IMG/VR virus record: IMGVR_UViG_3300042446_001106 | Coordinates: 1 to 47,834 of that record | DNA length: 47,834 nucleotides | Origin: a virus | Direction: 5' to 3' (one strand) | Shown here: positions 14,175 through 46,252 of the stretch, in pieces | Layout: the number at the start of each line of letters is the position of its first letter | Position numbering within the stretch: the first letter of the stretch is position 1 | The notes under the pieces: model-generated | Told to the model about the DNA's origin: nothing | Seen by the model: only the letters and a program-made list of their open reading frames with translations | The model's database searches: none | Translations under genes and position numbers: made by a program

Positions 14175-16046
14175 ATGAGCAAAGTCATCGGTATCGATTT
14201 AGGTACAACAAATTCATGTGTAGCTATTATTGAAAATGGCGTCGCAAAAGTTATTGAGAATTCAGAAGGCGCACGTACTACACCTAGTATTGTTGCATAC
14301 GCTAATGATGAAATTCTAGTAGGCGCAAGTGCAAAGCGTCAAGCAGTAACAAACCCCAAGAACACAATCTATGCTAGCAAGCGACTAATTGGACGTAAGT
14401 TTGATGAAGCGGCTGTGCAAAAAGACATTGATCTAATGCCTTACACCATCATCAAGGCAGATAACGGTGATGCTTGGGTACAGGTAAATGAGGACAAACT
14501 AGCACCTCCACAAATTTCAGCTGAAGTACTTCGCAAGATGAAAAAGACTGCTGAGGACTATTTAGGTGCAGAGGTTACACAGGCAGTTATTACAGTACCA
14601 GCTTACTTTAATGACAGCCAACGTCAAGCCACTAAGGATGCAGGTAAGATTGCAGGTCTTGAAGTGCTACGTATTATTAACGAGCCTACTGCGGCTGCAC
14701 TGGCCTACGGTGTTGATAAGGCTGACAAGAAAGACAGCAAAGTTGCAGTATACGACTTGGGTGGTGGAACTTTTGATATCTCTATTATTGAGATTGCTAA
14801 TGTCGATGGCGACAAACAGATTGAAGTGTTAAGTACGAACGGTGATACATTCTTAGGTGGTGAAGACTTTGACCAACGCATCATGGACTTCTTGGTTGAT
14901 GAGTTTAAGAAAGAAAATGCAATTGATCTTAAGAAAGACATGCTGGCTCTACAACGCCTAAAAGAGGCTGCTGAAAAAGCCAAGATTGAATTGTCCAGCA
15001 GTGCCAGTACCAGCGTTAACTTGCCCTATATTACAGCAGACGCTAATGGCCCTAAGCATATGAACGTTACTATTAGCCGTAGTAAGCTAGAAAGCCTTGT
15101 TGAAGAATTGATTCAACGTAGTATTGAGCCATGCCGTATTGCTATTAAAGATGCAGGTGTGGATGTTAGCGAAATTGACGAGGTTATCCTTGTTGGTGGT
15201 ATGACACGCATGCCTAAGGTACAAGAAGCAGTTGAGAAGCTGTTCGGTAAGGCTCCACGTAAGGATGTTAACCCAGACGAAGCAGTTGCAGCGGGTGCGG
15301 CTGTACAAGGTGCTGTGCTAGCAGGTGACCGTAATGACGTATTGTTACTTGACGTTACTCCATTGAGCTTGGGTATCGAGACCATGGGCGGCATTATGGC
15401 CAAGTTGATCAACAAGAATACAACTATCCCAACTAAGGCTAGTCAAACATTCTCAACAGCAGAAGACAACCAACCAGCAGTTACTATCAAAGCGTTCCAG
15501 GGTGAGCGTGACCTAGTACAACATAACAAGCTATTAGGCGAGTTTAACTTAGAAGGTATCCAGCCACAACGTCGTGGTCAGCCACAGATCGAAGTTACAT
15601 TGGATATCGATGCCAACGGTATCATGCACGTAAGTGCTAAAGATAAAACCACTGGTAAAGAAAACAAGATTACTATCAAGTCAGACTCGGGTCTAACTAA
15701 AGAAGAAATCGAACGTATGGTACAAGAAGCAGAAGTTAACGCAGAGAGTGATAAGAAGACTCGTGAGTTGATCGAAGCACGTAACCAAGCAGAAGCACAG
15801 ATCCATAGCATTAAGAAAGATATGGAAGAAGTAGATGCAGAGTTATCGGCCGAAGTTAAAGACAAAGTTAACGAAGCTATCACTTCAGTAGATGCAGCAA
15901 TTATCACAGAAGATAAAGATGCCATTACACAAAAACTTAGCGACTTGTTTACTGCGGCTCAACCAGTGATGGAAGCTAAACAAAAGAAAGAAGAAGCTAA
16001 GAAGAATGAAACTCCGGTAGACGCAGAGTTTACTGAAGTTAACTAA
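14175..16046 (+). CDS. dnaK: Molecular chaperone DnaK (Hsp70), full length
   Basis: 623 residues, close to bacterial DnaK. The nucleotide-binding domain has [11 protein letters not shown] at the N-terminus, [26 protein letters not shown] and VGGMTRMP. The linker [10 protein letters not shown] leads to the substrate-binding domain ([20 protein letters not shown]), a helical lid, and the C-terminal DAEFTEVN characteristic of DnaK rather than HscA. Cytoplasmic, ATP-dependent refolding, normally with DnaJ and GrpE, neither of which is seen here, so host co-chaperones must be used. Codon use looks like that of the neighbours, so it is not an obvious recent capture. Confidence 0.98.
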
Positions 16047-16059
16047 CACAGACACACAT

Positions 16060-16067
16060 AATAAATA
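16060..16067 (+). promoter_or_regulatory. Late-promoter-like box (AATAAATA) for hsp20
   Basis: AATAAATAC, one mismatch to the exact late box, upstream of the hsp20 leader hairpin. Confidence 0.45.
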
Positions 16068-16070
16068 CGT

Positions 16071-16125
16071 GTAGGGCGCTCGGGTGAGGCCCTACTATAA
16101 TCTTGCTTAAATTAAGGAGAACATT
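16071..16125 (+). promoter_or_regulatory. hsp20 leader: hairpin plus the shared chaperone segment
   Basis: GTAGGGC (16071-16077) pairs with GCCCTAC (16089-16095). A TATAAT (16096-16101) without a clear -35 follows, then the 23-base segment shared with dnaK (16099-16121), including AAGGAGAA. Confidence 0.65.
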
Positions 16126-16572
16126 ATGAACGCAACATTAAGAACTATTGATACTGCCGCTTTAGCTCAACTGAGTAGAGCACTTGTAGGATTTGATCGA
16201 ATGTTTGACACCTACGAAACTCGATTCGCTAGTCAAACATCTAACTATCCTCCACACAACATTGTTAAGTATGACGAATATCACTACGCTATTGAAATGG
16301 CAGTAGCTGGATTCAAGAAGAGCGAAATCGCTGTAGAAGTTGAGAATGATCAACTGACTATCCGTGGTGAGAGCTTGACTGCTAACGATCCGACAAGGCA
16401 GTACATACACAGAGGCCTAAGTAGTCGAGACTTTGAAAGAAGGATAGGGCTTACTGAACATATGATTGTTAAAGGTGCTGAAATCCAAGACGGCATTTTG
16501 ACCATCAACATCGAACTTGAGCTTCCTGAAGAAAAGAAGCCAAGAGTTGTTGACATTGTAGAAATTAAGTAA
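16126..16572 (+). CDS. Small heat-shock protein Hsp20 (IbpA-like)
   Basis: 148 residues. The alpha-crystallin domain spans about residues 38-135 with the hallmarks AVAGFKKSEI, V-x-N-x-x-L-T-I-R-G-E and YIHRGLSSRDFERR...L. The N-terminal FDRMFDTYE resembles IbpA/B. A C-terminal I-x-I/V-like motif is only loosely kept (VVDIVEIK). These ATP-independent holdases hand clients to DnaK, which is encoded directly upstream with the same leader. Hsp20 is common in T4-like marine phages. Confidence 0.96.
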   Translation: MNATLRTIDTAALAQLSRALVGFDRMFDTYETRFASQTSNYPPHNIVKYDEYHYAIEMAVAGFKKSEIAVEVENDQLTIRGESLTANDPTRQYIHRGLSSRDFERRIGLTEHMIVKGAEIQDGILTINIELELPEEKKPRVVDIVEIK

Positions 16573-16578
16573 TATAAT
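16550..16578 (+). promoter_or_regulatory. Consensus sigma70 promoter for the clpS-bilin operon
   Basis: TTGACA, 17 bases, TATAAT, located in the last codons of hsp20 and abutting the hairpin at 16579. Confidence 0.82.
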
Positions 16579-16602
16579 AAGGGGAAGGCAACTTCCCCTT
16601 TA
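16579..16602 (+). terminator. Hairpin after hsp20
   Basis: AAGGGGAAG (16579-16587), loop GCAA, CTTCCCCTT (16592-16600). Only a short T run follows, so termination may be partial. The hairpin begins right at the promoter -10 end. Confidence 0.6.
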
Positions 16603-16620
16603 AACTATACGGAGAATGAC

Positions 16621-16923
16621 ATGAGCGCAACAGACGTAAAACTTGACGAAAAGATCAAACAAAAGGTTGAAGAACCGCATCGTTGGAAAGTTATCCTATT
16701 AAACGATGACCATACTCCTGTGGACTTTGTTATTGGAATCCTAACAGAGATTTTTAAACACAGCCAAGAAACAGCCAAGGGTATCACAATGCAGATACAT
16801 ACTGAAGGAAGTGGTATTGCTGGAGTTTACAGTTTTGAGATTGCTGAAGTAAAGGCAGTTGAAGCAACTAATCTAGCTAGAGGCAACGGTTTCCCACTCC
16901 AAATTAAAATGGAAGAAGAATGA
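16621..16923 (+). CDS. clpS: ATP-dependent Clp protease adaptor ClpS
   Basis: 100 residues, the normal length. Residues 21-47 (HRWKVILLNDDHTPVDFVIGIL) hold the conserved NDD-x-T-P binding-pocket motif; QIHTEGSGIAGVYS and the EIAEVKA segment complete the fold. ClpS delivers N-degron substrates to ClpAP and inhibits other ClpA substrates. Phage carriage could redirect host proteolysis. GGAGA precedes the start; ATGA overlap with the heme oxygenase gene. Confidence 0.95.
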   Translation: MSATDVKLDEKIKQKVEEPHRWKVILLNDDHTPVDFVIGILTEIFKHSQETAKGITMQIHTEGSGIAGVYSFEIAEVKAVEATNLARGNGFPLQIKMEEE

Positions 16924-17471
16924 GTTTAAAAGAACTAACACACGAAGCACACCGTAACGCAGAAACACAATCATTTGTCAAGATTTTATTCTCTGGCAAA
17001 ATTAATCCAGAGTTGTATGCTGCCTATCTAAAAAATCAACACCCGTGTTATGAAATTTTAGAAGTGTGCGCTATGCCGCATGGATTACTACATGGCTTAC
17101 CTGATATGCGTAGAGCACCCGCTATTTTAGAAGATTACTTAGAGTTGCATGATCCTACGCAGGAAGAGCCTAAAATTTTACCTGCAACTGAACGTTATAT
17201 CAAGTACATTTTAAGTATTAAAGACGAGCCACAGAAATTAATGGCACACTTGTATGTACGTCATATGGGCGATTTGGCAGGTGGACAAATGATTGCAAAA
17301 CGTGTTCCTGGTAGTGGAAAATATTATCAGTTTGAAAATCCCGATGCACTTAAGACTGCAATCCGCGAACGACTAAATGATGACATGGCCGACGAAGCTA
17401 AAGTATGCTTTAAGTACGCCGAAGAGATGTTTAAAGAAATGATGACATTAGTTGAGTTTGTAGATGAGTAA
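16920..17471 (+). CDS. Heme oxygenase
   Basis: 183 residues. The proximal heme ligand is His11 in EAHRNAE. The distal helix with its flexible glycines reads HMGDLAGGQMIAK, preceded by AHLYVR. It opens heme to biliverdin IX-alpha, CO and iron using reduced ferredoxin or another reductase. The next gene encodes a bilin reductase and overlaps by eight bases, so biliverdin is probably passed on. Heme oxygenase genes are known from cyanophages and from uncultured marine phages carrying pcyX. Confidence 0.95.
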   Translation: MSLKELTHEAHRNAETQSFVKILFSGKINPELYAAYLKNQHPCYEILEVCAMPHGLLHGLPDMRRAPAILEDYLELHDPTQEEPKILPATERYIKYILSIKDEPQKLMAHLYVRHMGDLAGGQMIAKRVPGSGKYYQFENPDALKTAIRERLNDDMADEAKVCFKYAEEMFKEMMTLVEFVDE

Positions 17472-18144
17472 TGTTTGGGATACATTGATTGGGATAGAGC
17501 AACTACTTGAATCTAAGTTCTATGCGACAGGTAGTATTATTAACGAACCTGGTATGGATCGATTCAATCAACCCGGGTGGGTAAACAAAGTATGGGCAAG
17601 TAGTCGTTATCGTCGTGCTCATATTGATGTAGTAGATGCTCGCACAACAAAAGGCCTGTGGATGATGCATTGTTGTGTGTTCCCACATACACACAATCCT
17701 GCTCCTATTTTTGGATTTGATGTGATCGCAGGCAAGAATAAGATTACCGGCTGTTTTATTGATTACAGTCCTGCTGGAGATACTAATCATCCTATGATTG
17801 AGTATTTTGGTGAAGAAGTAGCTAGGTACGAGTGGAATAAGCCACGTAAATTGCCTGACTGGGCAGAGCGTATCTTTAGTAAGCATATGGTTGCAGCGGG
17901 TAATGTAAGTGACGAAGAAGAACTTCGTCAAATCTCAAGTCTTGCCAATATTCTAGTAAATCATTACTTAGAGTGCGTTGACGAAACTAATAATACTGCG
18001 GAAAACACTACAGAAGCGCAAAACTACTACGCACAGAATCAGAAGCAAAACCCGCATACTCCCAAAGTTATGGTTAGTCTAGGGCTAAGTGAAGACGATG
18101 TTCAGCACTTTATTCAGGAATGTTTGTTCCCGGAAATCAGCTAA
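17464..18144 (+). CDS. Ferredoxin-dependent bilin reductase (PcyA/PcyX-like)
   Basis: 226 residues. The core matches the family: WASSRYRRAHID, MMHCCVFPHTHNPAPIFG and FDVIAGKNKI, then FIDYSP. His69 and Asp86 are spaced by 17 residues, exactly like the catalytic His88 and Asp105 of PcyA. The product cannot be read off: PcyA gives phycocyanobilin, and phage PcyX gives phycoerythrobilin. The C-terminal region (NNTAENTTEAQNYYAQNQ) is a low-complexity insert before the last helix. It is paired with heme oxygenase; no bilin acceptor protein is in the window. Confidence 0.88.
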   Translation: MSNVWDTLIGIEQLLESKFYATGSIINEPGMDRFNQPGWVNKVWASSRYRRAHIDVVDARTTKGLWMMHCCVFPHTHNPAPIFGFDVIAGKNKITGCFIDYSPAGDTNHPMIEYFGEEVARYEWNKPRKLPDWAERIFSKHMVAAGNVSDEEELRQISSLANILVNHYLECVDETNNTAENTTEAQNYYAQNQKQNPHTPKVMVSLGLSEDDVQHFIQECLFPEIS

Positions 18145-18147
18145 ATA
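18140..18147 (+). promoter_or_regulatory. Late-promoter-like box (GCTAAATA)
   Basis: TAAATAT core eight bases before the start of the internal head protein candidate, overlapping the stop codon of the bilin reductase gene. Confidence 0.4.
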
Positions 18148-18154
18148 TTACACT

Positions 18155-19927
18155 ATGAGATTTACAGAGTTTAAATTAACAGAAGCAGTCCTAAGGGGCT
18201 CGTCATCCACTAGTTGGCCAGGTTACTTGAGAAATATGATTTCTGCTGGTAGTTTGTCGCTAGGTACATCTGGTGAAAAAGCTAAAGGGTTAGTTTTAAC
18301 TCCGGAATCAAAAGAAATTATCAACACCCTTGAAGTAGAAATTAAAGATGCAATAGCAACAAAGGGTAATCTTGAACTAGTTAAATCAAAGATTGAGTCT
18401 ACAGAAATATCGTTTACTAATGGAACAACTGCATTAATTAAATCTGTATTTAAGAGTCCTGAACTTAGATCAGGTGCTGCAGATGTAAAAACTGGCGCAC
18501 GTACTACTAAGTATTGGAACGATGGCGAAGTTGCAGAAACCTTCCTAGGTGTTGCACTATTTGCTCGTTTCAAAAGTAAAAAAGAAATTACCGCAGATCA
18601 AGTATACACAGAATTTAAAAAGTTAAAGGCTATACCTGGCGGTTTTATGATGAAGGGCAAGCGCGGCAATAATCCAGTAGAAATGCTTGCAATTAATAAG
18701 CCAGCTAATAACCAAGCTATTGAAGAAATTTCATCAGATTTATCAAAATTTAAACGTGAATACCCAGATGCATCTACAGAGTTATTAAAGTTAATTGATG
18801 CATCAGTTTCGTATGTTAATCAATCTAGTAATGTTTTTGAAGCTATTGCAAAAGCAGACAACGAACCTAATGCAGATAAGATTATTATTAAAACAGACGG
18901 AGTAAGCGATCAAACTGGAACTAAGGCTGACTTACAATTAAATGTAGGCGACTACGAAAGACTGCTAAGTTTAAAGGCAAATTATGTTAAACAATTTGGT
19001 CAAGACACTGGTGCTAGATATGAAGTTATTCAGACATTCTTTAGTAGATTTATCCCCGATGTAGATATTTCAGCACTTGAATCTCAATGGCCGCAGATGG
19101 ATGCTGCTAATTTAAAGAATTACAGAGCACAAGGCATTGCTAGAGATAAGTTTAACGAAGTTTATAGTTTAGTATCACAAGCATATACTACTGCATCTGA
19201 TGTACTGAATTCTAAATTATCTAAGCCGGCAACTGCAAGTGGGGTAGTAACTGATCTATATAATGGTATCATACACCATGCTCAAGGTAATGAAACAAAA
19301 CAAGTAGTGGTAGTATTAAATCCTAGTGCAAATAAAGCATGGGCTGAATTAGAATTTGGTGAATCCCTAGCAACTTCTCTTGCTTCTTTTAGATTAGAAA
19401 CTAAATTGACCCTAGCAGGGCAAGGTGGTAAGGATAATCATATCTTGCAAATTTTTGGCCGTCCTGCAAACAGTATTGCCGCAGTTGCAATGGATAATAA
19501 TATCTCTTCTGATAAGCAAGCTCAACAGGCACTAGCAGTTGCTAAGAAACGAGCACCTAAGGTTGATCCAGAATTATTATTCCAACTAAGATCTTATGTT
19601 CAGGAAGCTGGTCCTACACTACGTAACATTGTCGAAATGGGGCCTCTGTTAAAAGATATTACAGAAGTACAACAAATACAAAATGTTGCTAACACGCCTG
19701 AACCTGCTGAAGATGAACCACAAGTAGTACAACCGAGCAAATCAACACAGGCAACAAACGTGGCGGCGCCTACTCAAACGACTGCTACAACAAAAGGTGT
19801 ACCAAGCGGTGCAACTAGTATTGCTCCTATGAGTGCAACTATAAACAAAGATCCTGCCGAAGAAGATCCAATGGCTGATAAAGAGTTAGATCGAGTTAAG
19901 AAAAATGCCGGTATTAGCGTCGAATAA
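18155..19927 (+). CDS. Putative packaged internal head protein
   Basis: 590 residues, no signal or membrane segment. The start at 18155 opens MRFTEFKLTEAV, which resembles the T4 capsid-targeting sequence of internal proteins (MKTYQEFIAEA). LTE followed by Ala fits the L/I-x-E cleavage rule of the T4 gp21 prohead protease. The body is mixed alpha/beta with no motif I recognise; the last 90 residues are Pro/Thr/Glu-rich and unstructured. A late-type box precedes it. If right, the protein is packaged with DNA and injected. The assignment rests on a ten-residue motif only. Confidence 0.6.
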   Translation: MRFTEFKLTEAVLRGSSSTSWPGYLRNMISAGSLSLGTSGEKAKGLVLTPESKEIINTLEVEIKDAIATKGNLELVKSKIESTEISFTNGTTALIKSVFKSPELRSGAADVKTGARTTKYWNDGEVAETFLGVALFARFKSKKEITADQVYTEFKKLKAIPGGFMMKGKRGNNPVEMLAINKPANNQAIEEISSDLSKFKREYPDASTELLKLIDASVSYVNQSSNVFEAIAKADNEPNADKIIIKTDGVSDQTGTKADLQLNVGDYERLLSLKANYVKQFGQDTGARYEVIQTFFSRFIPDVDISALESQWPQMDAANLKNYRAQGIARDKFNEVYSLVSQAYTTASDVLNSKLSKPATASGVVTDLYNGIIHHAQGNETKQVVVVLNPSANKAWAELEFGESLATSLASFRLETKLTLAGQGGKDNHILQIFGRPANSIAAVAMDNNISSDKQAQQALAVAKKRAPKVDPELLFQLRSYVQEAGPTLRNIVEMGPLLKDITEVQQIQNVANTPEPAEDEPQVVQPSKSTQATNVAAPTQTTATTKGVPSGATSIAPMSATINKDPAEEDPMADKELDRVKKNAGISVE

Positions 19928-19948
19928 TAGCTGATTTCACCATTTAGA

Positions 19949-19977
19949 TTGCAAGGGCCATTAAAAGGCTATATAAT
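19949..19977 (+). promoter_or_regulatory. sigma70-type promoter, -10 inside a hairpin loop
   Basis: TTGCAA, 17 bases, TATAAT. GCTAT (19968-19972) and ATAGC (19980-19984) enclose the -10. Serves the DUF3307 gene and possibly the curli cluster. Confidence 0.7.
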
Positions 19978-19989
19978 AAATAGCATAAG

Positions 19990-20358
19990 ATGGAACTTTT
20001 AATATTACTCCTACTACTACAGATCAAGCATTGCTATGCTGACTTTGTACTCCAGACCTACATGCAAACGGTTAAAAAAGGCGTGTGGATGGATCCTGTT
20101 GGAATTAGTCATACATTAGATCACATATACTGTTCTTTAATAGCATTATTGTTATTTTCTATATTTGTTCCATTAAGTGCCGTTAGCATATTACTTGTAT
20201 CTTTAGTTGAAGGTGTTGTACATTACCTTGTTGATTACACAAAAGTAAAATACGGTAGCAAGGACAATACAAAACCCCTCTTCTGGACACAGTTTGGCCT
20301 AGATCAACTAGCGCATCAAGCAACCTACCTAGCCATGGTAGCGTATCTTATTAGTTAA
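19990..20358 (+). CDS. DUF3307-type membrane protein
   Basis: 122 residues, three to four membrane helices. KHCYADFVLQ near the N-terminus and the paired HxxxD/HYLVDYTKVKYG and FWTQFGLDQLAHQ motifs match DUF3307, a membrane family of unknown activity whose conserved His and Asp residues suggest metal binding or catalysis at the membrane. It lies between the internal protein candidate and csgF. Confidence 0.82.
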   Translation: MELLILLLLLQIKHCYADFVLQTYMQTVKKGVWMDPVGISHTLDHIYCSLIALLLFSIFVPLSAVSILLVSLVEGVVHYLVDYTKVKYGSKDNTKPLFWTQFGLDQLAHQATYLAMVAYLIS

Positions 20359-20386
20359 AACTACACTTTTCTAAAATTTAGCACCT

Positions 20387-20394
20387 ACTAAATA
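20387..20394 (+). promoter_or_regulatory. Late-promoter-like box ahead of csgF
   Basis: ACTAAATAC, sharing the TAAATAC core, 26 bases before the csgF start, within a small dyad CCTA...TAGG. Confidence 0.4.
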
Positions 20395-20420
20395 CTAGGT
20401 AGATCTCAAGGAGCGAACCA

Positions 20421-20900
20421 ATGAGAAAAATCCTAGTATCAATAGGTCTGATTTTATCAGCAACACTAGCGCAAGCAGAACTAGTACATCAATTTAAAAA
20501 TCCAGCGTTTAGCGGCGTTGGTTTCAGTAGCCACGTACTCACTATCGACAGCATTGAAAAGAGCCGTCGTGACGCTATTGAAGCAGATAAAAAATCTGCA
20601 ATTGCAAAAGCAGAAGCTGAATTGCTGAACACGCCTTTGAATAGATTTATGAGTCTATTCCAAAGTCAAGTATATGCTCAACTTGCAACACAGTTAAGCA
20701 GCAATCTATTTCAAAACAAATGCTCAGCCGCAGACGGATCATCAATCCCGGGCTGCGTAAATCCAACAACCGGTAATTTTGTTCTAGATGGCAATACAGT
20801 CACTTGGGTTAAATCTGTTGACAAAGTTACACTAACAGTAGTAGATGCTAAAGGTACTAGAACTACTGTAGTAGTACCAATTGCCAGCTTTAGTTTTTAA
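20421..20900 (+). CDS. csgF: Curli assembly factor CsgF
   Basis: 159 residues with AAGGAG upstream. Signal peptide ends ATLAQA. The mature N-terminus, ELVHQFKNPAFSGVGFSSH, corresponds to the CsgF segment F-Q-F-R-N-P-N-F-G-G that inserts into the CsgG channel and forms its second constriction. The helical middle and C-terminal beta region (KVTLTVVDAKGTRTTVVVPI) follow the CsgF pattern. In E. coli CsgF couples secretion to nucleation of amyloid at the surface. csgG follows after nine bases. No csgE is seen. Confidence 0.92.
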   Translation: MRKILVSIGLILSATLAQAELVHQFKNPAFSGVGFSSHVLTIDSIEKSRRDAIEADKKSAIAKAEAELLNTPLNRFMSLFQSQVYAQLATQLSSNLFQNKCSAADGSSIPGCVNPTTGNFVLDGNTVTWVKSVDKVTLTVVDAKGTRTTVVVPIASFSF

Positions 20901-20909
20901 GGAGAAAAT

Positions 20910-21848
20910 ATGAAAGCAATTAAATTATCCTTAATTACATTAGCAATAGTAGCCTTAGCAGGTTGTTCAACTGTCCGCCCATGGGGCAGTACTAAAATTA
21001 AAGAAGAAGCCAAAGTAAGTGAAACAATCAACAAGAGTTTCTCTGTTATTCCAGCGCCAGCAGGCCCAGCAGTAACCGTAGCAGTATATGGTTTCAAAGA
21101 CCTAACAGGACAGCGTAAGCCAAGTAGTACATTGAGCTTGTTCAGCACAGCAGTTACACAAGGTGCTGAAGCATACTTGATGAAGAGTCTACAGGAAGTC
21201 GGCAACCGTCAATGGTTCACAGTGGTTGAGCGTGTTGGCCTAGACAACTTGTTAAAAGAGCGTCAAATGATCAAACAGACCCGTGAGATCTATGATGGTG
21301 CAAATGCCAAACCTTTACCTCCACTACAAATGGCAGGTGTTATTCTAGAAGGCGGCATTATTGATTATAACAGCAATACACTAACAGGCGGCACTGGTGC
21401 TCGTTGGTTAGGCATTGGCACATCTACAGCCTACACACAAGATGTAGTTGTTATCAGCTTACGTTTAGTAAGCGTACAAACTGGAGAAGTCCTAACTACT
21501 GTTACAGTGGAAAAGAACTTGCTCAGCACCGCAGATGGTGCCACAGCGTTGAAGTTTTTCAACCAAGCGACTCAGGCATTTGAATTTGATTCAAGCCAAA
21601 CATTTAACGAGCCAGGTAACTATGCCCTACGTTCAGCGATCGAAACAGCAGTTATTGAGTTAATTAAGAAAGGCGAACGTAATGGTTTATGGCAATTCAA
21701 GGAGAAGTCCAATGAGTTGGTTCAAACACAAACCAAGACTAAAGACGCAGCCAAAGCTGCACCCACACCACAGCAGCCCAATATCGGAGCAGGTGTTGAA
21801 GGAAGCAAAGAAAAGAGTATCTGGGGAAGACTCCAGTTCTGGAAATAA
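20910..21848 (+). CDS. csgG: Curli secretion channel CsgG
   Basis: 312 residues (E. coli 277). Lipoprotein signal with lipobox LAGC at residues 16-19. Family signatures: AVYGFKDLTGQRKPSS, FSTAVTQGAEAYLMKSL, WFTVVERVGLDNLLKERQ, and the transmembrane hairpin region around GARWLGIGTSTAYTQDVV. CsgG forms a nonameric outer-membrane pore for unfolded curli subunits. The extra 40 residues at the C-terminus are Lys/Pro-rich. With CsgF upstream and curlin-type substrates downstream this forms a complete export-plus-cargo unit. Confidence 0.96.
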   Translation: MKAIKLSLITLAIVALAGCSTVRPWGSTKIKEEAKVSETINKSFSVIPAPAGPAVTVAVYGFKDLTGQRKPSSTLSLFSTAVTQGAEAYLMKSLQEVGNRQWFTVVERVGLDNLLKERQMIKQTREIYDGANAKPLPPLQMAGVILEGGIIDYNSNTLTGGTGARWLGIGTSTAYTQDVVVISLRLVSVQTGEVLTTVTVEKNLLSTADGATALKFFNQATQAFEFDSSQTFNEPGNYALRSAIETAVIELIKKGERNGLWQFKEKSNELVQTQTKTKDAAKAAPTPQQPNIGAGVEGSKEKSIWGRLQFWK

Positions 21849-21879
21849 AAAGAATAAAGAAAAATAACCAGACTGGGGT

Positions 21880-21908
21880 GTAAAAAAATTTACAGTAAAA
21901 ATTTTTAC
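21880..21908. promoter_or_regulatory. Tandem 14-bp palindromes between csgG and the curlin gene
   Basis: GTAAAAAAATTTAC (21880-21893) and GTAAAAATTTTTAC (21895-21908), almost the same palindrome twice, 15 bases apart, in the 149-base gap. Possible operator for a dimeric regulator; A/T-richness makes chance possible. Confidence 0.45.
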
Positions 21909-21997
21909 ATGTCAGAAAAATAACAGCGGTAGTTTATATATGAGAAGTTCCTTTTAAATAAAATACACAACGGACATTCAAGTCCAAAGGAAATATT

Positions 21998-22858
21998 ATG
22001 AAACAATTATTATTAGTATTAGCATTATTAACAGCGTTCCCAGTAATGGCTCAACAGGCTGTGCTGGCCCCAACTACGCCAACAATCCCGTCAGTGGCTA
22101 CTGTTAGTCCAAACGCAGCCAGTGCATTAGCAGTTAGCACTACCAACAGAGTGTTTATTGATCAAAGCGGTGAGAACCCTAACGTTAATATCACACAAAC
22201 AGGTACAGGCAACACAGTAGGTGCGGACACTACTTACCAAAAAGCACTAACAGGTATCCCTAACAGACTAGGAACACCAACAACTAGAGCCTGGACATTA
22301 AGCAGTCCTGTATATCTAAGAGGTGCTGACCAAACTATTGTTACAGTACAAACAGGCAATAATAACACTATCGGTCTAAGAGCAGAAAATCCTACAACAA
22401 CAGGCGACGGAGTTAATGTTACTATTCAACAAATTGGTAACAGCAACGTAGTTGATGCTGCCTGCGGTGGCGGAACGGCTAGCAATGGAACCACTGCCTT
22501 AACAGGATGTAAGGATGCTGTGTTAAACTGGAAATTTGCTGGCAATACTAACGTGATGCAATTCCGTGGTACAGGTGACAATCTTAACAGCAATGTAGAT
22601 ACAGCTGGTAACAGCAATGAATTTTACATTGACGCTATTGGCAATAGTCATTCACAGACACTAAAAGTTGTTGGTGACTTTAACGTATTCAATGTTAGCC
22701 AAACAAGTACAGGCGCAAGTGGTAGCAGTGCTTGGATAGATGTTACAGGTAGCACCAATAGGTTTACCGTTAACCAAGCTGGAACTGTTGACAGCGTAGT
22801 TAACATCAAGAGTGTAGCCAGTACTGGAACCTGGAACATTAACCAAAAGACCAACTAA
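21998..22858 (+). CDS. Curlin-repeat (CsgA/CsgB-like) secreted protein
   Basis: 286 residues, AAAGGAA upstream. Signal peptide ends FPVMA before QQAVLAP. The mature chain contains curlin-type Q/N-rich strand repeats: NVNITQTGTGNTVG, VTVQTGNNNTIG, VTIQQIGNSNVVD, and later degenerate copies such as GSTNRFTVNQAG and TGTWNINQKTN. The I/V-x-Q-x-G-x-x-N rhythm is that of amyloid-forming curlin. Repeats are less regular than in CsgA and are interrupted by a Cys-containing loop (DAACGGG...GCKD). Likely cargo of the CsgG channel. Confidence 0.85.
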   Translation: MKQLLLVLALLTAFPVMAQQAVLAPTTPTIPSVATVSPNAASALAVSTTNRVFIDQSGENPNVNITQTGTGNTVGADTTYQKALTGIPNRLGTPTTRAWTLSSPVYLRGADQTIVTVQTGNNNTIGLRAENPTTTGDGVNVTIQQIGNSNVVDAACGGGTASNGTTALTGCKDAVLNWKFAGNTNVMQFRGTGDNLNSNVDTAGNSNEFYIDAIGNSHSQTLKVVGDFNVFNVSQTSTGASGSSAWIDVTGSTNRFTVNQAGTVDSVVNIKSVASTGTWNINQKTN

Positions 22859-22867
22859 GGGCTAACA

Positions 22868-24037
22868 ATGAAAGTTGTTGCTCTTATCGTGGGCTTGATA
22901 ATAGCCAGTTCGGCTTGGGCAGAGATTGGCTCTGTTACAGAAGCCAGTGGCACTGCTATCATCAAGCGTGGTAAGGACACAATTCAAATTGCCAAAGGCA
23001 CGCAGATAAAGGTCAACGACAAAGTTGAAACCAAGAACGGAAAAGTCAAGATCGTTTTTAAAGACGATACAAATGTTACTGTTACTGAGTCAAGTAGCCT
23101 TGTTATTGATGACTTCGTTTATGATCCTAAAAGCGGAGCTGGCAAGTTGGGACTCAAAGCCGCCGCCGGCACAGTGCGTTATGTATCAGGAAGCATTGCT
23201 AAAGATCCAAAGAATGTAAAAATCAACACACCCACAGCGGCCATTGCTGTTCGTGGCACTGACTTTGTCATGGCTGTGAGCGAAACAGGTGCTAGTATGA
23301 TCATGTTGATGCCCACTTGCGAAATAGAACAGAACGTAAATTTAAAAGGTCTTAGTTGCGGCAGCGGTGCTATTGATGTAGAAACACCATCTGGCATAGT
23401 TAAATTAAACCGCCCTTATCAAGCCACCCTAGTTGAAACCTTAAACGGTATACCTAGCCCTGCTGTGATAGTTGCTCTTAATGGTATGGCTATTGGCAAT
23501 AACCTAATGGTTAATCCTCCAAGAACAACTACTGGATTAAATGTTATTGCTGCCGCTCGTGCTGCCGCAGTAGCTACTGGCGATGCTAAGAAAGACGATA
23601 AGAAAGATAAGCGTGACGAAAAAGACGAAAAAGACGATGCTAAAGAAGAACGTCAACACGCTGCTAATAAAGATGGGCCTGGCGGCAATAGATCACAGCG
23701 ACAAGGTCGTAGTGCTAATGAAGGCGATGAGGATCCTGGTAATAGAACTAAAGTGGGTTTAGATACTAAAGAAGATACATTAGTCAGTCAAACGGCCACA
23801 GTTAGTGAAACAGAAAACCCTTACCTGTTTAAACTATGGAAAGACAAAAGTGAAACACAGCAGGTTGGTTGGATGTACGAAAGTCTAAGTCCCAACAGCA
23901 GAAACTATGCCAATGTGGTTATGCCTATGAACACTCAGGTACAGGTAATAGTAACACAAGATATGCAGACTAACAGCTGGAACTTTTCAGCAGGTAAAGC
24001 CATAGGACAGATTGTTATCAATCAGAACTACAGATGA
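22868..24037 (+). CDS. Exported FecR-domain protein
   Basis: 389 residues. Signal peptide ends SSAWA before EIGSVTEASG. The FecR domain covers about residues 20-140: GTAIIKRG, KGTQIKVNDKVETKNGKVKI, FKDDTNVTVTESSSLVIDD, and INTPTAAIAVRGTDF. Residues 240-260 are an extreme Lys/Asp/Glu stretch, followed by a C-terminal beta domain. FecR domains outside iron signalling are often near CHASE2 cyclases and surface-protein exporters, as here. It starts nine bases after the curlin gene and overlaps the next by four. Confidence 0.88.
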   Translation: MKVVALIVGLIIASSAWAEIGSVTEASGTAIIKRGKDTIQIAKGTQIKVNDKVETKNGKVKIVFKDDTNVTVTESSSLVIDDFVYDPKSGAGKLGLKAAAGTVRYVSGSIAKDPKNVKINTPTAAIAVRGTDFVMAVSETGASMIMLMPTCEIEQNVNLKGLSCGSGAIDVETPSGIVKLNRPYQATLVETLNGIPSPAVIVALNGMAIGNNLMVNPPRTTTGLNVIAAARAAAVATGDAKKDDKKDKRDEKDEKDDAKEERQHAANKDGPGGNRSQRQGRSANEGDEDPGNRTKVGLDTKEDTLVSQTATVSETENPYLFKLWKDKSETQQVGWMYESLSPNSRNYANVVMPMNTQVQVIVTQDMQTNSWNFSAGKAIGQIVINQNYR

Positions 24038-26509: not shown

Positions 26510-28573
26510 ATGATGAAGAAAATACTATTATCCCCTTGGACAGCACTGGCTACACTAGCCCTGGTGTTATTAGTCCGTCTTGTAGATCCTGCGTTTGTAG
26601 AACGAGTAAGACTTACTTATTTTGATCAACTAATCACAAGCCAGCAGGCCAAAGATGTTCCTGTTTACACGGTCAACATTGACGAAGCAACATTAGACAA
26701 GTTAGGACAGTTTCCGTTCCCTAGAGACATGTATGCTGATATCATCAAAGACTTATACAAGCGTGACGCTGGACTGGTTGTATTCAATGTGCTTATGCCA
26801 GAGAAGGATCGTTTTGGTAAAGATGCGGTGTTAGGTGAAACTCTTAAAAAGTATCCTGTAGTGTTGCCTGCAATAGGCAGTGAGAAACAAAAGAATACTA
26901 ATCATGGAACTCCTGCACAGGTAGTAGGTGCTGATCCTGCTGGAATGGTAGTTGAGTATCCGGGATTGATCAATAACGTTGAGCCACAAGAAAGCCTTGC
27001 CGCTGGTGTTGGCATTGTCAATACATTTCCAGAGATAGATGGTGTTGTTCGTCGTATGCCAATGGTCATACTAAGTCAAGAACAACTACATCCTGCACTA
27101 GCTCTAGAGACTTTACGTGTCGCGGCCAAGGATCCCAAGTTCCAAGTTAAAATAGGAGACATGGGCGTGGAGGCGGTGCGTGTTCCTAAGTTTGGTAAAG
27201 TACCAACGGACAACGAAGGTCGTGTTTGGATCGATTGGTCGGCCACTCCGAGAGAATACAGCTACATGAAGTTGCCAGAATCATTCGACGGTGGCATTGT
27301 TATTGTTGGACTAAGTGCTGCGGGACTGGCTAATCCAGTTAGTACTGCTAAAGGTGAAGTATGGCCACAATATCTACAAGGTGCGGTTATTGGCACTATG
27401 ATAACACAGAGTAATATACAGCGTCCAGGTTGGGCTGATCAAGCTGAAATCATTGCCTTGCTGGCCGCAGGCTTGTTGATGCTATTTTTATCAAGGTGGA
27501 CCTATGCTTTTATTCCTGTTGTTGTCTTTCTCGGTGGCAGTCACTTTGCTATATCTTATCTATATGAAAACTCCAGAATCCTATTGGACGCCACTTGGTT
27601 TGTTGTTGGCTGTAGCTTGGTATACATTCACGCTTATAGTGTCAAATTTCTAAGCGAATACTTACAGAAGTCACAGATTAAGAAACAGTTCGGATCATAT
27701 GTAAACCCTATTATTGTAGAACGACTACAAAAGGATCCTAGCTTTATTAAACTGGGCGGTGAGAAGAAAGAACTTACTGTCATGATGAGTGACATGCGTA
27801 ACTTTACTGGTTTGGGAGAAACATATGGAGATGATGTTGTGGCATTTACGCATACAATGAATCGTTACATGACTGCCATTGCAGAACCTATACTACGCAA
27901 CAATGGATGTTTGATCAAGTTCATTGGTGATGCGTCATTACACGTTCACGGTGCTCCTATTCAAGAGGCGCAAGATCCTGATCACATACTAGCAGGTGTA
28001 CGTACAGGATTAGAAATGTTACACGCTGTTGAACTGTTTAACATTGAACTAGAGAAAGAGGGCAAGCCAAAAGTAGGATGCGGAATAGGTATCAACACAG
28101 GTCCTACCTTGATTGGTAACATCGGAAGTAAGGATCGATTTGCCTATGACGTATTAGGTGATTCAGTTAGTCTAACAGCTCGTCTAGAAGGACAGACAAA
28201 GAACTATGGTGTGCTGATTATCATTAGTGAAGCTACACAGAGTAGAGTAGGAAATGCTTACTTTACATTGCCTTTAGATTGTATTGCGGTCAAGGGTAAG
28301 AACATAGGTGTCAATATCTTTACTGTGTTCTACAATCCAGATGAGAATGTAGCAGCAGAATGGCATAGTGCTAGAGAGCATCATGAACTAATGCTCGAAT
28401 ACTATCGTGAACAAAATTGGGACAAGGCTATTGAACTTTGTCAAGAACTCGTTGGTGAGTTCTATGGTAATATGGATCACTACTATGAGATATGGATTGA
28501 ACGTATTGCCGAAATGCGTAGTAGAAATTTAGCCGCAGACTGGGATGGTACTTACAGAGCTACAAGCAAGTAA
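26510..28573 (+). CDS. CHASE2-domain class III adenylate cyclase
   Basis: 687 residues. N-terminal helix (residues 10-22), periplasmic CHASE2 sensor (about 30-300, with DEATLDKLGQFPFPRDMYAD), three membrane helices (310-375), then the cyclase domain. Metal-binding D428 (MMSDMRNFT) and D474 (KFIGDAS) are present. K470 and D547 fit ATP rather than GTP. R558 is kept, but the transition-state Asn is replaced by Ser554 (GDSVSLTAR). A C-terminal helical region follows. It ends the curli cluster and meets a bidirectional terminator. No Shine-Dalgarno is obvious at the ATGATG start. Confidence 0.93.
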   Translation: MMKKILLSPWTALATLALVLLVRLVDPAFVERVRLTYFDQLITSQQAKDVPVYTVNIDEATLDKLGQFPFPRDMYADIIKDLYKRDAGLVVFNVLMPEKDRFGKDAVLGETLKKYPVVLPAIGSEKQKNTNHGTPAQVVGADPAGMVVEYPGLINNVEPQESLAAGVGIVNTFPEIDGVVRRMPMVILSQEQLHPALALETLRVAAKDPKFQVKIGDMGVEAVRVPKFGKVPTDNEGRVWIDWSATPREYSYMKLPESFDGGIVIVGLSAAGLANPVSTAKGEVWPQYLQGAVIGTMITQSNIQRPGWADQAEIIALLAAGLLMLFLSRWTYAFIPVVVFLGGSHFAISYLYENSRILLDATWFVVGCSLVYIHAYSVKFLSEYLQKSQIKKQFGSYVNPIIVERLQKDPSFIKLGGEKKELTVMMSDMRNFTGLGETYGDDVVAFTHTMNRYMTAIAEPILRNNGCLIKFIGDASLHVHGAPIQEAQDPDHILAGVRTGLEMLHAVELFNIELEKEGKPKVGCGIGINTGPTLIGNIGSKDRFAYDVLGDSVSLTARLEGQTKNYGVLIIISEATQSRVGNAYFTLPLDCIAVKGKNIGVNIFTVFYNPDENVAAEWHSAREHHELMLEYYREQNWDKAIELCQELVGEFYGNMDHYYEIWIERIAEMRSRNLAADWDGTYRATSK

Positions 28574-28575
28574 AC

Positions 28576-28600
28576 AAAAAGGACCCTAGGGTCCTTTTTT
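28576..28600. terminator. Bidirectional terminator
   Basis: AAAAAGGACC, loop CTAG, GGTCCTTTTT between convergent transcription units (cyclase on plus, membrane protein on minus). A and T runs on both sides serve both directions. Confidence 0.88.
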
Positions 28601-28946
28601 AATCATCTCCGGCAGCGCCTTTAATTTCTTCTTTAGTAGCTCGACGTTTACCAATAGGCGGTTCATCTGCTGTTTTATTAATCTCAGCTTCAGCTTTTAC
28701 ACGCTCACGTTCAATGGTCTTGCCACGCAGTTCCATGACAGTTTCAACTTTTTGATTCAACCTGATAAGATCGTTATCAAGCATACGAATACGATCAATA
28801 AGAGCGATAAGAGTTCCATTAGCTGCTCCAATAACAGGTTTAATTTCTGTGGTAACCCATGTCCACACGTAATATATGAAGTATCCCATGCCACCGGCTG
28901 CTATAACCGGGAAACCATAGCGATTGACCATTTCTGCCAAATCCAT
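28599..28946 (-). CDS. Membrane-anchored coiled-coil protein
   Basis: 115 residues. N-terminal MDLAEMVNRYGFPVIAAGG leads into a membrane helix (FIYYVWTW), then an amphipathic helical stretch (LIDRIRMLDNDLIRLNQKVETVMEL) and a charged tail. Its layout parallels the 91-residue protein two genes upstream (MDFFKLVAELGFPIAAAF...), so the two look like paralogues. This N-terminus resembles small holin-like or YvrJ-like phage proteins; function not assigned. Confidence 0.78.
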   Translation of the reverse strand: MDLAEMVNRYGFPVIAAGGMGYFIYYVWTWVTTEIKPVIGAANGTLIALIDRIRMLDNDLIRLNQKVETVMELRGKTIERERVKAEAEINKTADEPPIGKRRATKEEIKGAAGDD

Positions 28947-29125
28947 TATTTGTATCCTCTAAAAAATTTAACTACAGGATCAACTTTAACTAATTCTACT
29001 CGTCCGTTGATATTCTTAACTTCAAACAGATCCCCTGCTCGCCACTCTAATTTATCAATATTAAGTTCTCGATCTAGAACTATTCTATCTTTGTGCAAGT
29101 CCCAATCATAATCAGCGTATTTCAT
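28946..29125 (-). CDS. 59-residue hypothetical protein
   Basis: MKYADYDWDLHKDRIVLDRE... encoded between two membrane proteins and overlapping each by TAATG, a strong sign that it is real. The sequence is acidic and beta-rich (LEWRAGDLFEVKNINGRVEL), resembling a small SH3-like domain. No family recognised. Confidence 0.75.
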   Translation of the reverse strand: MKYADYDWDLHKDRIVLDRELNIDKLEWRAGDLFEVKNINGRVELVKVDPVVKFFRGYK

Positions 29126-29400
29126 TAGTCTTTCCTTTGATCTGCTTGTTCAGCGCGACTAATACGATCGTAGTCGGGCTGTAGGCCTAACGCATGACTA
29201 ACTTTAACATCAATACGCTGTAGTTGATTAGTCATAGTATCAACACGGGCATCTAAGCCTTTAATAATACCACCCATACCATTTACTGAGCTAGTAACAC
29301 CTGCAAGAATAAATTTCAGTGTTAGAAACACAAAGTAGCCTGCGGCAAATGCTGCGGCAATTGGAAATCCAAGTTCTGCTACTAATTTAAAAAAATCCAT
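29125..29400 (-). CDS. Membrane-anchored coiled-coil protein, paralogue
   Basis: 91 residues, AGGAG upstream on the minus strand. N-terminal membrane helix (GFPIAAAFAAGYFVFLTLKF), a glycine-rich hinge (SSVNGMGGI), then a coiled coil (LDARVDTMTNQLQRIDVKV). First gene of a three-gene minus-strand operon. See the paralogue ending at 28599. A holin-like or membrane-scaffold role is possible. Confidence 0.78.
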   Translation of the reverse strand: MDFFKLVAELGFPIAAAFAAGYFVFLTLKFILAGVTSSVNGMGGIIKGLDARVDTMTNQLQRIDVKVSHALGLQPDYDRISRAEQADQRKD

Positions 29401-29419
29401 GTAATCGCTCCTACAAATA

Positions 29420-29427
29420 TATTTACC
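29420..29427 (-). promoter_or_regulatory. Late-promoter-like box on the minus strand
   Basis: GGTAAATA on the minus strand, 20 bases before the start at 29400, sharing the TAAATA core. Confidence 0.4.
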
Positions 29428-29434
29428 AAAATGC

Positions 29435-29463
29435 TTGCGTATAAATACTAGTGACTGTATAAT
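29435..29463 (+). promoter_or_regulatory. sigma70 promoter of the tmRNA with an embedded late box
   Basis: TTGCGT, 17 bases, TATAAT (29458-29463). The spacer contains an exact late box TATAAATA (29440-29447), so the gene could be read early and late. ACTGT (29454-29458) and ACAGT (29465-29469) form a dyad around the -10. Confidence 0.82.
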
Positions 29464-29469
29464 AACAGT

Positions 29470-29850
29470 TATTGTTGTAATCCCTTCAAAGTGAAGGCAT
29501 TCTGGACGCGGGTTCGACTCCCGCCAGGTCCACCAAAAGGATATTTATGAAGTACACCGCATTGTGCCCAAGTTGTTTTATTAGATTTAGTTGGGTAATG
29601 AGGAAAGGCTTAACAAAACATAAGTGTTTTTCTGATGGGCCTGCCATGGTTTCGACAGGGTGAGATAATAGAGACGGCAACACGGTAGGCGATGACCGTA
29701 AATCAAGCAAATAAAGTAAATGCAACAGCAAATACATTCGAGTATTTCCAAGTTGACTTCGACGTTACAGCAATGAACGACGAGCAATTTGCAATCGCAG
29801 CCTAAGAAACTGCAACTCCGGGGTAGGACTTACCTTGTAAAATAAACAAC
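29470..29850 (+). ncRNA. ssrA: Circularly permuted two-piece tmRNA
   Basis: The 3' acceptor piece comes first: T arm GCGGG TTCGACT CCCGC (29508-29524), CAGGTCC (29525-29531), A, then an encoded CCA ending at 29535. A 101-base intervening segment follows. The coding piece starts GGGCCTG at 29637 and continues TTTCGACAGGG. GGGCCUG pairs with CAGGUCC over seven positions (one G-U) to form the tRNA-like acceptor stem, and AGGGUG (29657-29662) can pair with CAUUCU (29498-29503) to start helix P2. The tag frame runs 29722-29805: 27 codons beginning ATANTFEYF and ending NDEQFAIAA, stop TAA. Exact ends of the pieces are inferred; no tRNA fits the acceptor piece in the normal order. Confidence 0.9.
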
Positions 29851-29851
29851 C

Positions 29852-29877
29852 ATAGGACCTTCGGGTCCTATCTTTTT
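29852..29877 (+). terminator. tmRNA terminator
   Basis: ATAGGACC, loop TTCG, GGTCCTAT, then CTTTTT. A textbook rho-independent terminator directly after the coding piece. Confidence 0.93.
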
Positions 29878-29903
29878 GGCTATATTTCCAATATTTCGCA
29901 TCG

Positions 29904-29927
29904 AACATGTGCGTACACGCACATGTT
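29904..29927. promoter_or_regulatory. Perfect 11-bp inverted repeat
   Basis: AACATGTGCGT, AC, ACGCACATGTT, lying between the tmRNA terminator and a TATAAT (29945-29950) that has no good -35. It may be an operator for the gene at 29999 or a second hairpin terminator (four T follow). Confidence 0.6.
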
Positions 29928-29998
29928 TTGCCGGCAAATTCGTGTATAATTGATAGATAGACGAACTAATTAGTTTATATGTTATTAAAAGGAAAAAT

Positions 29999-30898
29999 AT
30001 GACAACTACAATTACAATTAAAGACAAAGCAGTAAACACAACTTACCAAAATGTCACAGGCTTAACAGGCGGAACTGGAACAGGCGCTACTTTTGATGTT
30101 ACTAAAACAGACGGAGTATACTCTGTAGTTCTTGACAGCGTAGCCGCTAGTGCTGGCTCTGGCTATGTTGCAGGTGATACAATCACTCTTGCTGGTACAG
30201 CATTAGGTGGCACTGTAGCCAACAACCTAATTGTTACTGTAGCCACAGTTGGTACATCTGGCAAAGTTGCTACCTTTGGTGTAGTAGGTACTGGTCGTGC
30301 AGGAGATGGCACTGTTGACATTACCGTTGACGTTACAGGTACTACTGGCGTTGACACTTACGCCATGGGAGGTAAGAGCACAGAGTTCACAGTTACTAAA
30401 ACTGCTGACAATGTAAAGTTAGCCAGCACACTAGTTAGTAACATGGAATTTAATCTTGCCAATCACGAGCGTGTTGTGTTCACAGACAAGGCCGTTGCCT
30501 ATGATGCCACAGGTCGTGCAGGGGACGTATATGCATTGTTAGCGGCTGCACTTGGTACAGCAGATGTTACTAAGGCTTATACAGGTGTTGGAATTCGACT
30601 TGCTGATTCAGGTTGGACTAACAAGGAATTAGCCACAGCATTGTTAGCCACTGATGTTTACAAAACAGATGCAGGTGGTGTTAGCAATGAAACATTCATC
30701 AAGCACGTTTACAAAAATGTGTTTGGTACTGATGCAACATTAACACAGGTTACCGATTACACAGCATGGATGACTAACAGCAAGTTGTCACAGGCTGATG
30801 TATTGGTTGCCGCTAGCGAATTAGCCGCGTTTGAAACAACTATTGGTTTAGTGGGTTTAGCAACAACTGGTATTGAATATACTCCAGTCGTTGGATAA
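29999..30898 (+). CDS. Surface-type protein with DUF4214-like C-terminus
   Basis: 299 residues, Thr/Gly/Ala-rich, no N-terminal signal. The N-terminal third contains a motif (AGSGYVAGDTITLAGTALGG) also seen in the 2254-residue fibre on the other strand. The C-terminal third (FIKHVYKNVFGTDATLTQV, DYTAWMTNSKLSQADVLVAA, then FETTIGLVG and GIEY) has the look of DUF4214 regions found at the end of bacterial S-layer and RTX-type proteins exported by type I secretion. AAAAGGAA precedes the start. It could be a virion adhesin or be exported by the host. Confidence 0.72.
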   Translation: MTTTITIKDKAVNTTYQNVTGLTGGTGTGATFDVTKTDGVYSVVLDSVAASAGSGYVAGDTITLAGTALGGTVANNLIVTVATVGTSGKVATFGVVGTGRAGDGTVDITVDVTGTTGVDTYAMGGKSTEFTVTKTADNVKLASTLVSNMEFNLANHERVVFTDKAVAYDATGRAGDVYALLAAALGTADVTKAYTGVGIRLADSGWTNKELATALLATDVYKTDAGGVSNETFIKHVYKNVFGTDATLTQVTDYTAWMTNSKLSQADVLVAASELAAFETTIGLVGLATTGIEYTPVVG

Positions 30899-45677: not shown

Positions 45678-45681
45678 ATAT

Positions 45682-45756: not shown

Positions 45757-45763
45757 ATTTTAT

Positions 45764-45999: not shown

Positions 46000-46004
46000 G
46001 TTTA

Positions 46005-46066: not shown

Positions 46067-46074
46067 TAACGTTC

Positions 46075-46249: not shown

Positions 46250-46252
46250 TAT

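Follow-up and report, generated by a model that had tools for sequence, protein, structure and literature searches.

Permuted tmRNA genes, represented in Rfam by RF04321 (tmRNA_permuted) and RF01850 (beta_tmRNA), carry the 3′ piece of the molecule upstream, followed by an intervening segment (IVS) and the 5′ piece. The available part of the description of a 2025 tmRNA database, which holds 79 phage sequences, defines the IVS as the sequence missing from the mature RNA (PMC11915505). Permuted tmRNAs are an already known kind in phages. The 2022 paper on phage Melnitz, in the part available, gives 402 phages with tmRNA, 133 unique structures and 53 called two-piece (PMC9004378). The IVS of one permuted tmRNA, nominally archaeal, contains a tRNA-Ala gene and therefore likewise houses another gene, but an RNA gene; the available part of the same article makes no mention of a protein gene in an IVS (PMC11915505). 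The Melnitz tmRNA resembles the molecule described here in being permuted, in residing in a curli-bearing T4-like phage and in displaying a conserved IVS frame, while it differs in its alpha type, its 14-residue tag, a glutamine riboswitch behind the gene, a different IVS peptide and no ClpS found in the phage. The tmRNAs described by RF04321 and RF01850 share with the present locus the order of the pieces, G3.U70, the T arm, TGGTTTCGAC and a degron-bearing tag frame. In the bacterial set, in contrast, the IVS extends over 5-49 nt (15 of 40 loci could be parsed, mostly from one family) against 101 nt with a putative gene, and tags comprise mostly 10 rather than 27 residues.

The stretch of DNA analysed here, termed the window, corresponds to a viral record 47,834 bases long, which is classed as linear and is thus possibly a fragment. 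Inspection of its letters, hereafter the sequence-only reading, had proposed a phage-borne circularly permuted two-piece tmRNA and had suggested a covariance search to check it. This search places both RF04321 (29473-29805, 135 bits; gathering cut-off 47) and RF01850 (29422-29875, 134.2 bits; cut-off 84) above their gathering thresholds. Both models are covered in full (positions 1-213 of 213 and 1-331 of 331, respectively), and the upstream 3′ piece, IVS and 5′ piece therefore follow each other in the permuted order. A permuted tmRNA was called independently by ARAGORN at 29443-29896, with tag ATANTFEYFQVDFDVTAMNDEQFAIAA. The features of the locus are as follows.

29458-29463, forward strand: −10-like TATAAT shortly before the 3′ piece, with no good −35 and missing from the promoter scan list
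29473-29535, forward strand: tmRNA 3′ piece, with a P2 strand and the T arm at about 29508-29524 (RF04321, RF01850, ARAGORN)
29525-29531, forward strand: acceptor 3′ strand CAGGTCC, followed by A and the encoded CCA at 29533-29535 (direct reading)
29536-29636, forward strand: IVS of 101 nt between the 3′ and 5′ pieces, absent from the predicted mature tmRNA
29537-29541, forward strand: Shine-Dalgarno-like AAGGA, 5 nt before the ATG at 29547 (direct reading)
29547-29663, forward strand: putative IVS gene of the Cys kind, MKYTALCPSCFIRFSWVMRKGLTKHKCFSD forming 30 codons within the IVS, then GPAMVSTG and a stop in the 5′ piece
29637-29851, forward strand: tmRNA 5′ piece, with GGGCCTG at 29637-29643, TGGTTTCGAC, the tag frame and downstream structure (RF04321, RF01850); its 3′ border is presumed
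29722-29775, forward strand: N-terminal tag module ATANTFEYFQVDFDVTAM, 18 codons from the resume codon GCA at 29722 (ARAGORN, GUAAAU context, related phage tags)
29776-29805, forward strand: C-terminal degron NDEQFAIAA with TAA at 29803-29805 (direct reading)
29852-29877, forward strand: terminator-like hairpin (8 pairs, 29852-29871) and T run (hairpin scan)

The acceptor strands GGGCCTG and CAGGTCC, read directly, pair at 7 of 7 positions, as had been noticed from the sequence, and include the G3.U70 pair of the alanine type. Seven distinct acceptor stems occur among the window and 131 viral loci (132 in total); all of their pairs are standard, G.U counted, G.U occupies position 3 in all seven, and two-sided changes are observed at positions 4 and 5. 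As the search patterns fixed part of the stem, the pairing is tested by the free positions 4 and 5 only. The downstream pseudoknot of the beta type is spanned by the RF01850 match, with several helix positions marked as non-standard pairs. By sequence, the locus is thus confirmed as a circularly permuted, beta-type tmRNA. Two-piece processing, alanine charging, use of SmpB and tagging by this RNA would be expected from its resemblance to these families.

The terminator that the sequence-only reading had placed behind the gene corresponds to the terminator-like hairpin and T run at its 3′ side. The sigma70 promoter proposed in front was not confirmed: the scan lists no site with 9 of 12 matches before the gene, the sole trace being the −10 hexamer; over 28400-30200, five promoter-like sites were found against a shuffle mean of 5.2, that is, no excess. 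TATAAT aligns with UAUAAU of the RF01850 consensus, and among 99 distinct upstream regions it lies 70 or 71 nt before TCCACCA in 17 cases (71 in the window). The T4-late-like TATAAATA at 29440-29447 occurs at chance frequency, with three found in the window against a mean of 4.75 expected.

The IVS contains a conserved reading frame that the first reading of the sequence had missed. It reads MKYTALCPSCFIRFSW...GLTKHKCFSD and its stop, at 29661-29663, lies inside the tmRNA 5′ piece. An aligned-peptide search with the patterns MKYTALC and GLTKHKC revealed 28 viral loci with this Cys-kind frame among 39 candidate stretches. The distance from the match to the CCA is 11 nt in 27 of the 28 and 17 nt in one, which carries a two-codon insertion. 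With CCA directly in front at 28/28 loci, no standalone copy of the Cys peptide was seen among those found with these two patterns. The tmRNA 5′ piece follows the frame by exact motif at 15/28 loci; all six loci submitted to Rfam, of which five lack that motif, match RF04321 at 102-140 bits, and the remaining eight are identical to locus L224 over the 100 nt compared. Ten Cys-kind contigs (L224-L233) have a 5′ piece without the usual TGGTTTCGAC; the two of these submitted to Rfam match RF04321 at 102.1 bits, above the cut-off, and the model listed for them is the alpha one. AAGGA is identical in nine distinct Cys-kind sequences and reads AAAGA in the most diverged relative, L236. The ATG is conserved in the compared IVS loci and the Shine-Dalgarno-like site in nearly all of them.

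The mode of evolution of this frame was assessed with a coding permutation test, in which site patterns were shuffled across sites sharing the same reference base (5000 sets). A comparison of 12 distinct sequences in register gives 377 pairwise codon differences, 133 of them synonymous, with variation at 9 of the 29 residues. The synonymous fraction, the small number of variable residues and the lack of stops were jointly reached by 0/5000 permutations, and singly by 197/5000, 2/5000 and 849/5000, respectively. An earlier test with nine sequences gave 60/2000, and the stronger result was obtained after more loci and the variable-residue count had been added. Two-codon insertions in L235 and L236 keep the frame. 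C7, C10, H25 and C27 are invariant in 13 Cys-kind sequences, while the end of the frame varies across loci, giving 35 to 59 residues; a variable stop would be expected if the IVS part is all that matters, and is odd for a gene. There is thus strong indication, by sequence, that the window IVS frame evolves as a protein, making it a candidate small gene. The Cys peptide has no Pfam match up to E = 1 and no PHROG family. A tblastn search returned 18 phage records only at E up to 10; the one inspected lay on the opposite strand of a larger gene. In the predicted structure two strands flank the CPxC motif, at a poor pLDDT of 62.9. By motif only (CPxC...HxC) the peptide may be called zinc-knuckle-like, and that it might act as a small zinc-binding regulator is a guess.

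Other phages appear to carry other peptides in the same place. From the 131 viral loci plus the window, 102 distinct IVSs were taken, and 24 of them contain a frame of at least 15 residues that opens at an ATG close to the beginning of the IVS and ends in a stop with 1 nt left before the 5′ piece. Of these end-to-end frames 21 are strongly hydrophobic (the membrane kind, 19-32 residues). Shuffling of the IVS middle in 300 rounds yielded on average 6.0 full frames (maximum 12) and 0.66 hydrophobic ones (maximum 4). A stop at the IVS end is a property of the membrane kind only; the other 78 of the 102 IVSs, which include the Cys kind, have no such end-to-end frame. In a separate, earlier count, 23 of 93 spacers presented a Shine-Dalgarno-like site and a frame of at least 15 residues, against a mean of 5.66 and a maximum of 13 in 100 rounds of dinucleotide shuffling. 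Codon tests on subgroups of the membrane kind gave 14/2000 for four sequences, and were not significant for three (662/2000) or two (123/2000). The closest system for the hydrophobic IVS peptides is that of the type I toxins Ibs and TisB. The likeness, in small size and hydrophobicity, is one of description, and the membrane-kind peptides differ in being housed in a tmRNA precursor; they are also not the kind found in the window. At four membrane-kind loci (L007, L047, L059 and L060) the downstream neighbour gene is that of the window, at 88% identity, and the content of the slot therefore differs at what is apparently one genomic place.

A third kind is found in a cultured phage. In Melnitz, a Shine-Dalgarno site and an ATG behind the CCA open a 54-residue frame in the tmRNA IVS. 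The Melnitz record annotates only SsrA over the whole stretch, and the frame is mentioned neither there nor in the available part of the paper (PMC9004378). Twenty-one relatives of this kind were identified in viral contigs, in 18 of which the match begins at residue 1, and all five loci submitted to Rfam lie inside RF04321/RF01849 matches. The core is basic and comprises 35 residues. Over these 35 codons, in 11 distinct sequences including Melnitz, 386 of 684 differences are synonymous, a count reached by 0/5000 permutations, as is the low number of variable residues (0/5000). Beyond the core, 8 of the 11 distinct sequences continue into the 5′ piece, while L261-L263 have different ends, with an earlier stop relative to their longer IVS. 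These comparisons suggest that the IVS is a slot for small protein genes, with at least three dissimilar kinds of predicted peptide in phages. The window IVS displays no Rfam cargo, riboswitch or other, up to E = 1. Among the 102 distinct phage IVSs, T-arm motifs are seen in nine and D-arm motifs in two (L021, L033, L037, L100, L110, L034, L055, L078, L090, L106 and L115), and loosened ARAGORN settings flag 11/102. These motifs are perhaps the remains of captured tRNA genes.

The proteolysis tag is also composite. A 27-codon tag frame ending in NDEQFAIAA had been noticed in the sequence-only reading and is recovered both by direct reading and by ARAGORN. It extends over 29722-29805, with the resume codon immediately after GUAAAU, the commonest resume context in phages (59 of 126). 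One resume rule was applied to all loci and altered two tags (L062 and L125); ARAGORN gave no tag for 6 of the 132 loci, all of them cut by contig ends. The 126 tagged loci present 68 distinct tags, of which 41 have 10-15 residues and 27 have 22-34, with none between. The long tags consist of a module followed by an ordinary degron, for example ANADTYDFSAMSFTGNTVRGA-ANDSRFALAA, or ATANTFEYFQVDFDVTAM-NDEQFAIAA in the window. The tag of a bacterial permuted tmRNA (L191), ANDEQFAIAA, shares its final nine residues with the window tag. By sequence, the latter is thus a host-like degron of known type behind an added module of a kind that phages share, a composition which the sequence-only reading had not recognised. 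The Mesoplasma/Mycoplasma tmRNA tag, with 27 residues, is read by Lon. As generally described, it shares its length with the phage tag and offers a precedent for added residues that change the protease, while the phage tag differs in retaining a ClpXP-type C-terminus.

Many nucleotide changes within the phage modules are silent. In 18 distinct sequences of the FDFSAMSF class, which excludes the class of the window's own module (FEYF), the synonymous fraction is 0.422 against 0.234 and was reached by 41/5000 permutations; the number of variable residues in this class is not unusual (944/5000). The motif [ST][FY][DEK][FY] is found repeatedly, in different phages, and isolate XacN1 has a tag, ANANTFDYALAA, that resembles a long-tag module. 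The module peptide therefore appears to be under selection in this one class.

The presence of a ClpS adaptor in the same phage, claimed in the sequence-only reading, was borne out by Pfam, and the gene belongs to a block at 14175-24037 that comprises DnaK, HSP20, ClpS and heme oxygenase and continues with CsgG and two further genes.

14175-16046, forward strand: DnaK/HSP70 (PF00012), upstream of ClpS
16126-16572: HSP20 (PF00011), between DnaK and ClpS
16621-16923, forward strand: ClpS, ClpA protease adaptor (PF02617, 96.8 bits, 6.4e-28)

By eye, the two genes after CsgG are placed like the curlin-repeat and FecR-like genes of Melnitz; the gene in the curlin-repeat place has no Pfam match. An IscU-like protein is also encoded in the window. 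Within the phage collection, the nearest counterparts of CsgG are those of Melnitz and Pelagibacter phage HTVC008M, while the large structural protein has its nearest in Synechococcus phages, affinities which identify the window phage as a T4-like relative of these phages. The last 2.2 kb of the window (45603-47834) hold 17 tRNA genes.

Long tags and ClpS tend to occur together. ClpS is present in 14 of 16 long-tag records and in 2 of 23 short-tag records (p 8.1e-7), a p value that is overstated because the records are related and size-selected. Before the tag rule was applied the counts were 13/15 against 3/24 (p 5.7e-6), L062 having been examined for its outlying ClpS result. Contig size and tag class, rather than random sampling, governed the choice of the 40 records, several of which are nearly identical to each other; L005, with ClpS and no tag, was excluded. 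Both of the ClpS-negative long-tag records are fragments, 29 and 32 kb long, and no ClpS was found in six named isolates with tags of 10-14 residues (0/6). The accompaniment of long-tag phages by ClpS lends support to the earlier suggestion that an interplay with Clp is plausible, and the association may reflect the shared ancestry of long-tag phages alone. The statement that the phage brings its own ribosome rescue was too strong: no SmpB was found in 30 phage records, window included and possibly fragments, and the window tmRNA would therefore need host SmpB. Its proposals that the RNA compensates for host mRNA decay or retargets tagged products are hypotheses.

Taken together, we consider it probable (roughly 0.8) that one precursor RNA serves two uses, as a permuted tmRNA with a module-degron tag and as the carrier of a small protein gene in the IVS. 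Host RNase P and 3′-end enzymes would cut the precursor such that the 3′ piece ends in CCA at 29535 and the 5′ piece starts at 29637, and the two pieces would pair to form an alanine-accepting tRNA-like domain. Together with host SmpB, the RNA would act in the rescue of stalled ribosomes, appending the 27-residue tag. ClpS diverts ClpAP from SsrA-tagged proteins, and the 18-residue module may, in concert with the phage ClpS, alter how host proteases recognise tagged proteins. Either the uncut precursor or the excised segment would serve as the message for the IVS gene. As the predicted closing stem of the IVS hairpin covers the ribosome-binding site, translation of this gene should be in competition with the folding and cutting of the precursor.

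That hairpin could instead be the whole purpose of the IVS, the frames being accidents of conserved ends and base composition. In the window the IVS is predicted to fold into a hairpin that joins both of its ends, more stable than shuffled sequences (MFE −23.3 kcal/mol, z −2.3), with the Shine-Dalgarno and ATG letters inside the closing stem. At least seven pairs between the first 14 and last 20 bases can be formed in 98/102 distinct IVSs, compared with 87/510 mononucleotide shuffles, and the terminal stop belongs to a TGAT or TAAT that ends 98/102 IVSs, frame or none. A processing hairpin, however, accounts for the ends of the IVS and not for the codon pattern of its middle. The synonymous excess and codon-confined changes in two dissimilar IVS families, the in-frame insertions among relatives and the 21 hydrophobic full frames where 0.66 are expected make this explanation very unlikely. 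A comparable argument holds for the tag, whose long frame might reflect RNA structure, as an added helix or pseudoknot arm, rather than a selected peptide. The extra codons do follow the resume site and precede the degron, in the vicinity of structured RNA; the downstream RF01850 helix is only partially paired, and the count of variable residues in the FDFSAMSF class is ordinary. Yet the peptide in that class is kept despite third-position changes, to an extent few permutations match, and the recurrence of [ST][FY][DEK][FY] in different phages, XacN1 among them, renders a purely structural origin unlikely.

Two further explanations concern the RNA as a whole. A molecule like that of phage DS6A, which consists of the TLD only, strongly inhibits tmRNA, perhaps via titration of SmpB, according to the available part of one report (PMC4131195). 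By this precedent, the phage RNA could be a decoy whose tRNA-like domain titrates host SmpB in place of trans-translation, which the failure to find SmpB in the phage records would also suit. A decoy, in contrast, needs neither tag frame nor resume context, degron or stop, all of which are retained, and the selection observed on module peptides in one class makes such a role quite improbable. Phages acquire host RNA genes and the window tmRNA is of the beta type by RF01850, so that a host ssrA captured by chance and now decaying might also be considered. Its acceptor stem, degron and terminator-like hairpin are nevertheless complete, and its tag and IVS are unlike the sampled bacterial ones in ways kept across many phages, which leaves decay scarcely credible.

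The reading of one precursor with two uses can be carried further, in a form that we regard as doubtful though worth stating. The phage IVS may be a general cargo slot in which the precursor doubles as messenger and cutting decides between the two. The Cys-kind frame, and those of Melnitz and its nearer relatives (8/11 distinct sequences), have no stop inside the IVS, and cleavage by RNase P would leave the excised segment as a non-stop message. A ribosome stalled on it could be rescued by the tmRNA just released, with the phage tag added to the peptide. If true, the tmRNA would keep its own passenger in check and come with a substrate already built in.

Within the open-licence PMC articles, among the matches listed, no published report of IVS genes or of modular long tags was found. 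These candidate genes and tags are the new part of the present analysis, and the support for them from sequence is strong. Conserved protein-coding IVS frames, one of them in a cultured phage, would make the tmRNA precursor a dual RNA and render the reason why phages retain two-piece tmRNAs testable. Current annotation masks such frames, as the SsrA-only Melnitz record illustrates. Modular long tags together with ClpS point to phages that adjust the path from rescue to proteolysis during infection.

A pattern scan restricted to IVSs 71-131 nt long and to particular T-arm and acceptor letters revealed at least 119 viral contigs with a permuted tmRNA. In four of four isolates, the Xanthomonas phages X1 and XacN1, Pseudomonas phage PA_L9 and Alcaligenes phage QDWS595, ARAGORN identified unannotated permuted tmRNAs, and RF04321 concurs for X1, XacN1 and PA_L9, the three submitted. 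The jumbo phage XacN1 presents two permuted tmRNA matches of equal score (L241 and L246), perhaps a terminal repeat, and a GOLLD RNA about 1 kb behind the first of them.

The bacterial comparison relies on several samples. In the set of 40 loci, mostly from one family, 39 tags were called, 35 of 10 residues and two of 11; the two longer calls, L182 (26 residues) and L204 (21 residues), were set aside as probable ARAGORN miscalls, and L199 had no call. In a wider sample, the best-scoring 29 loci yielded 27 tags, all of 10-13 residues, and two without a call, one of them L296. RF04321 gave 92 matches in 90 of 299 genomes, of which only that of L296 (genome G301) spans more than 300 nt, compared with 333 nt in the window. 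By eye, this bacterial locus has an IVS longer than 100 nt without an obvious open reading frame and a 22-residue tag with a seemingly doubled AND motif, and thus neither a long IVS nor a long tag is strictly a phage trait. In a sample of 100 genomes, four were above the RF04321 cut-off; one of these, G096 (L142), was rejected, as ARAGORN calls a standard tmRNA there. Pattern scans of genome contigs returned no long IVSs, and short ones in two Herbaspirillum contigs; these counts were left out of the comparison because the pattern demands an encoded CCA, absent from many bacterial genes. Two Herbaspirillum genomes (L121/L122 and L135-L139) contain a standard tmRNA, with tag ANDNSYALAA or ANDNSYAQAA, in addition to a permuted one, and the tags of the permuted genes, ANDSQFLAYGT or ANEPQFVAYGT, have an end other than the usual LAA.
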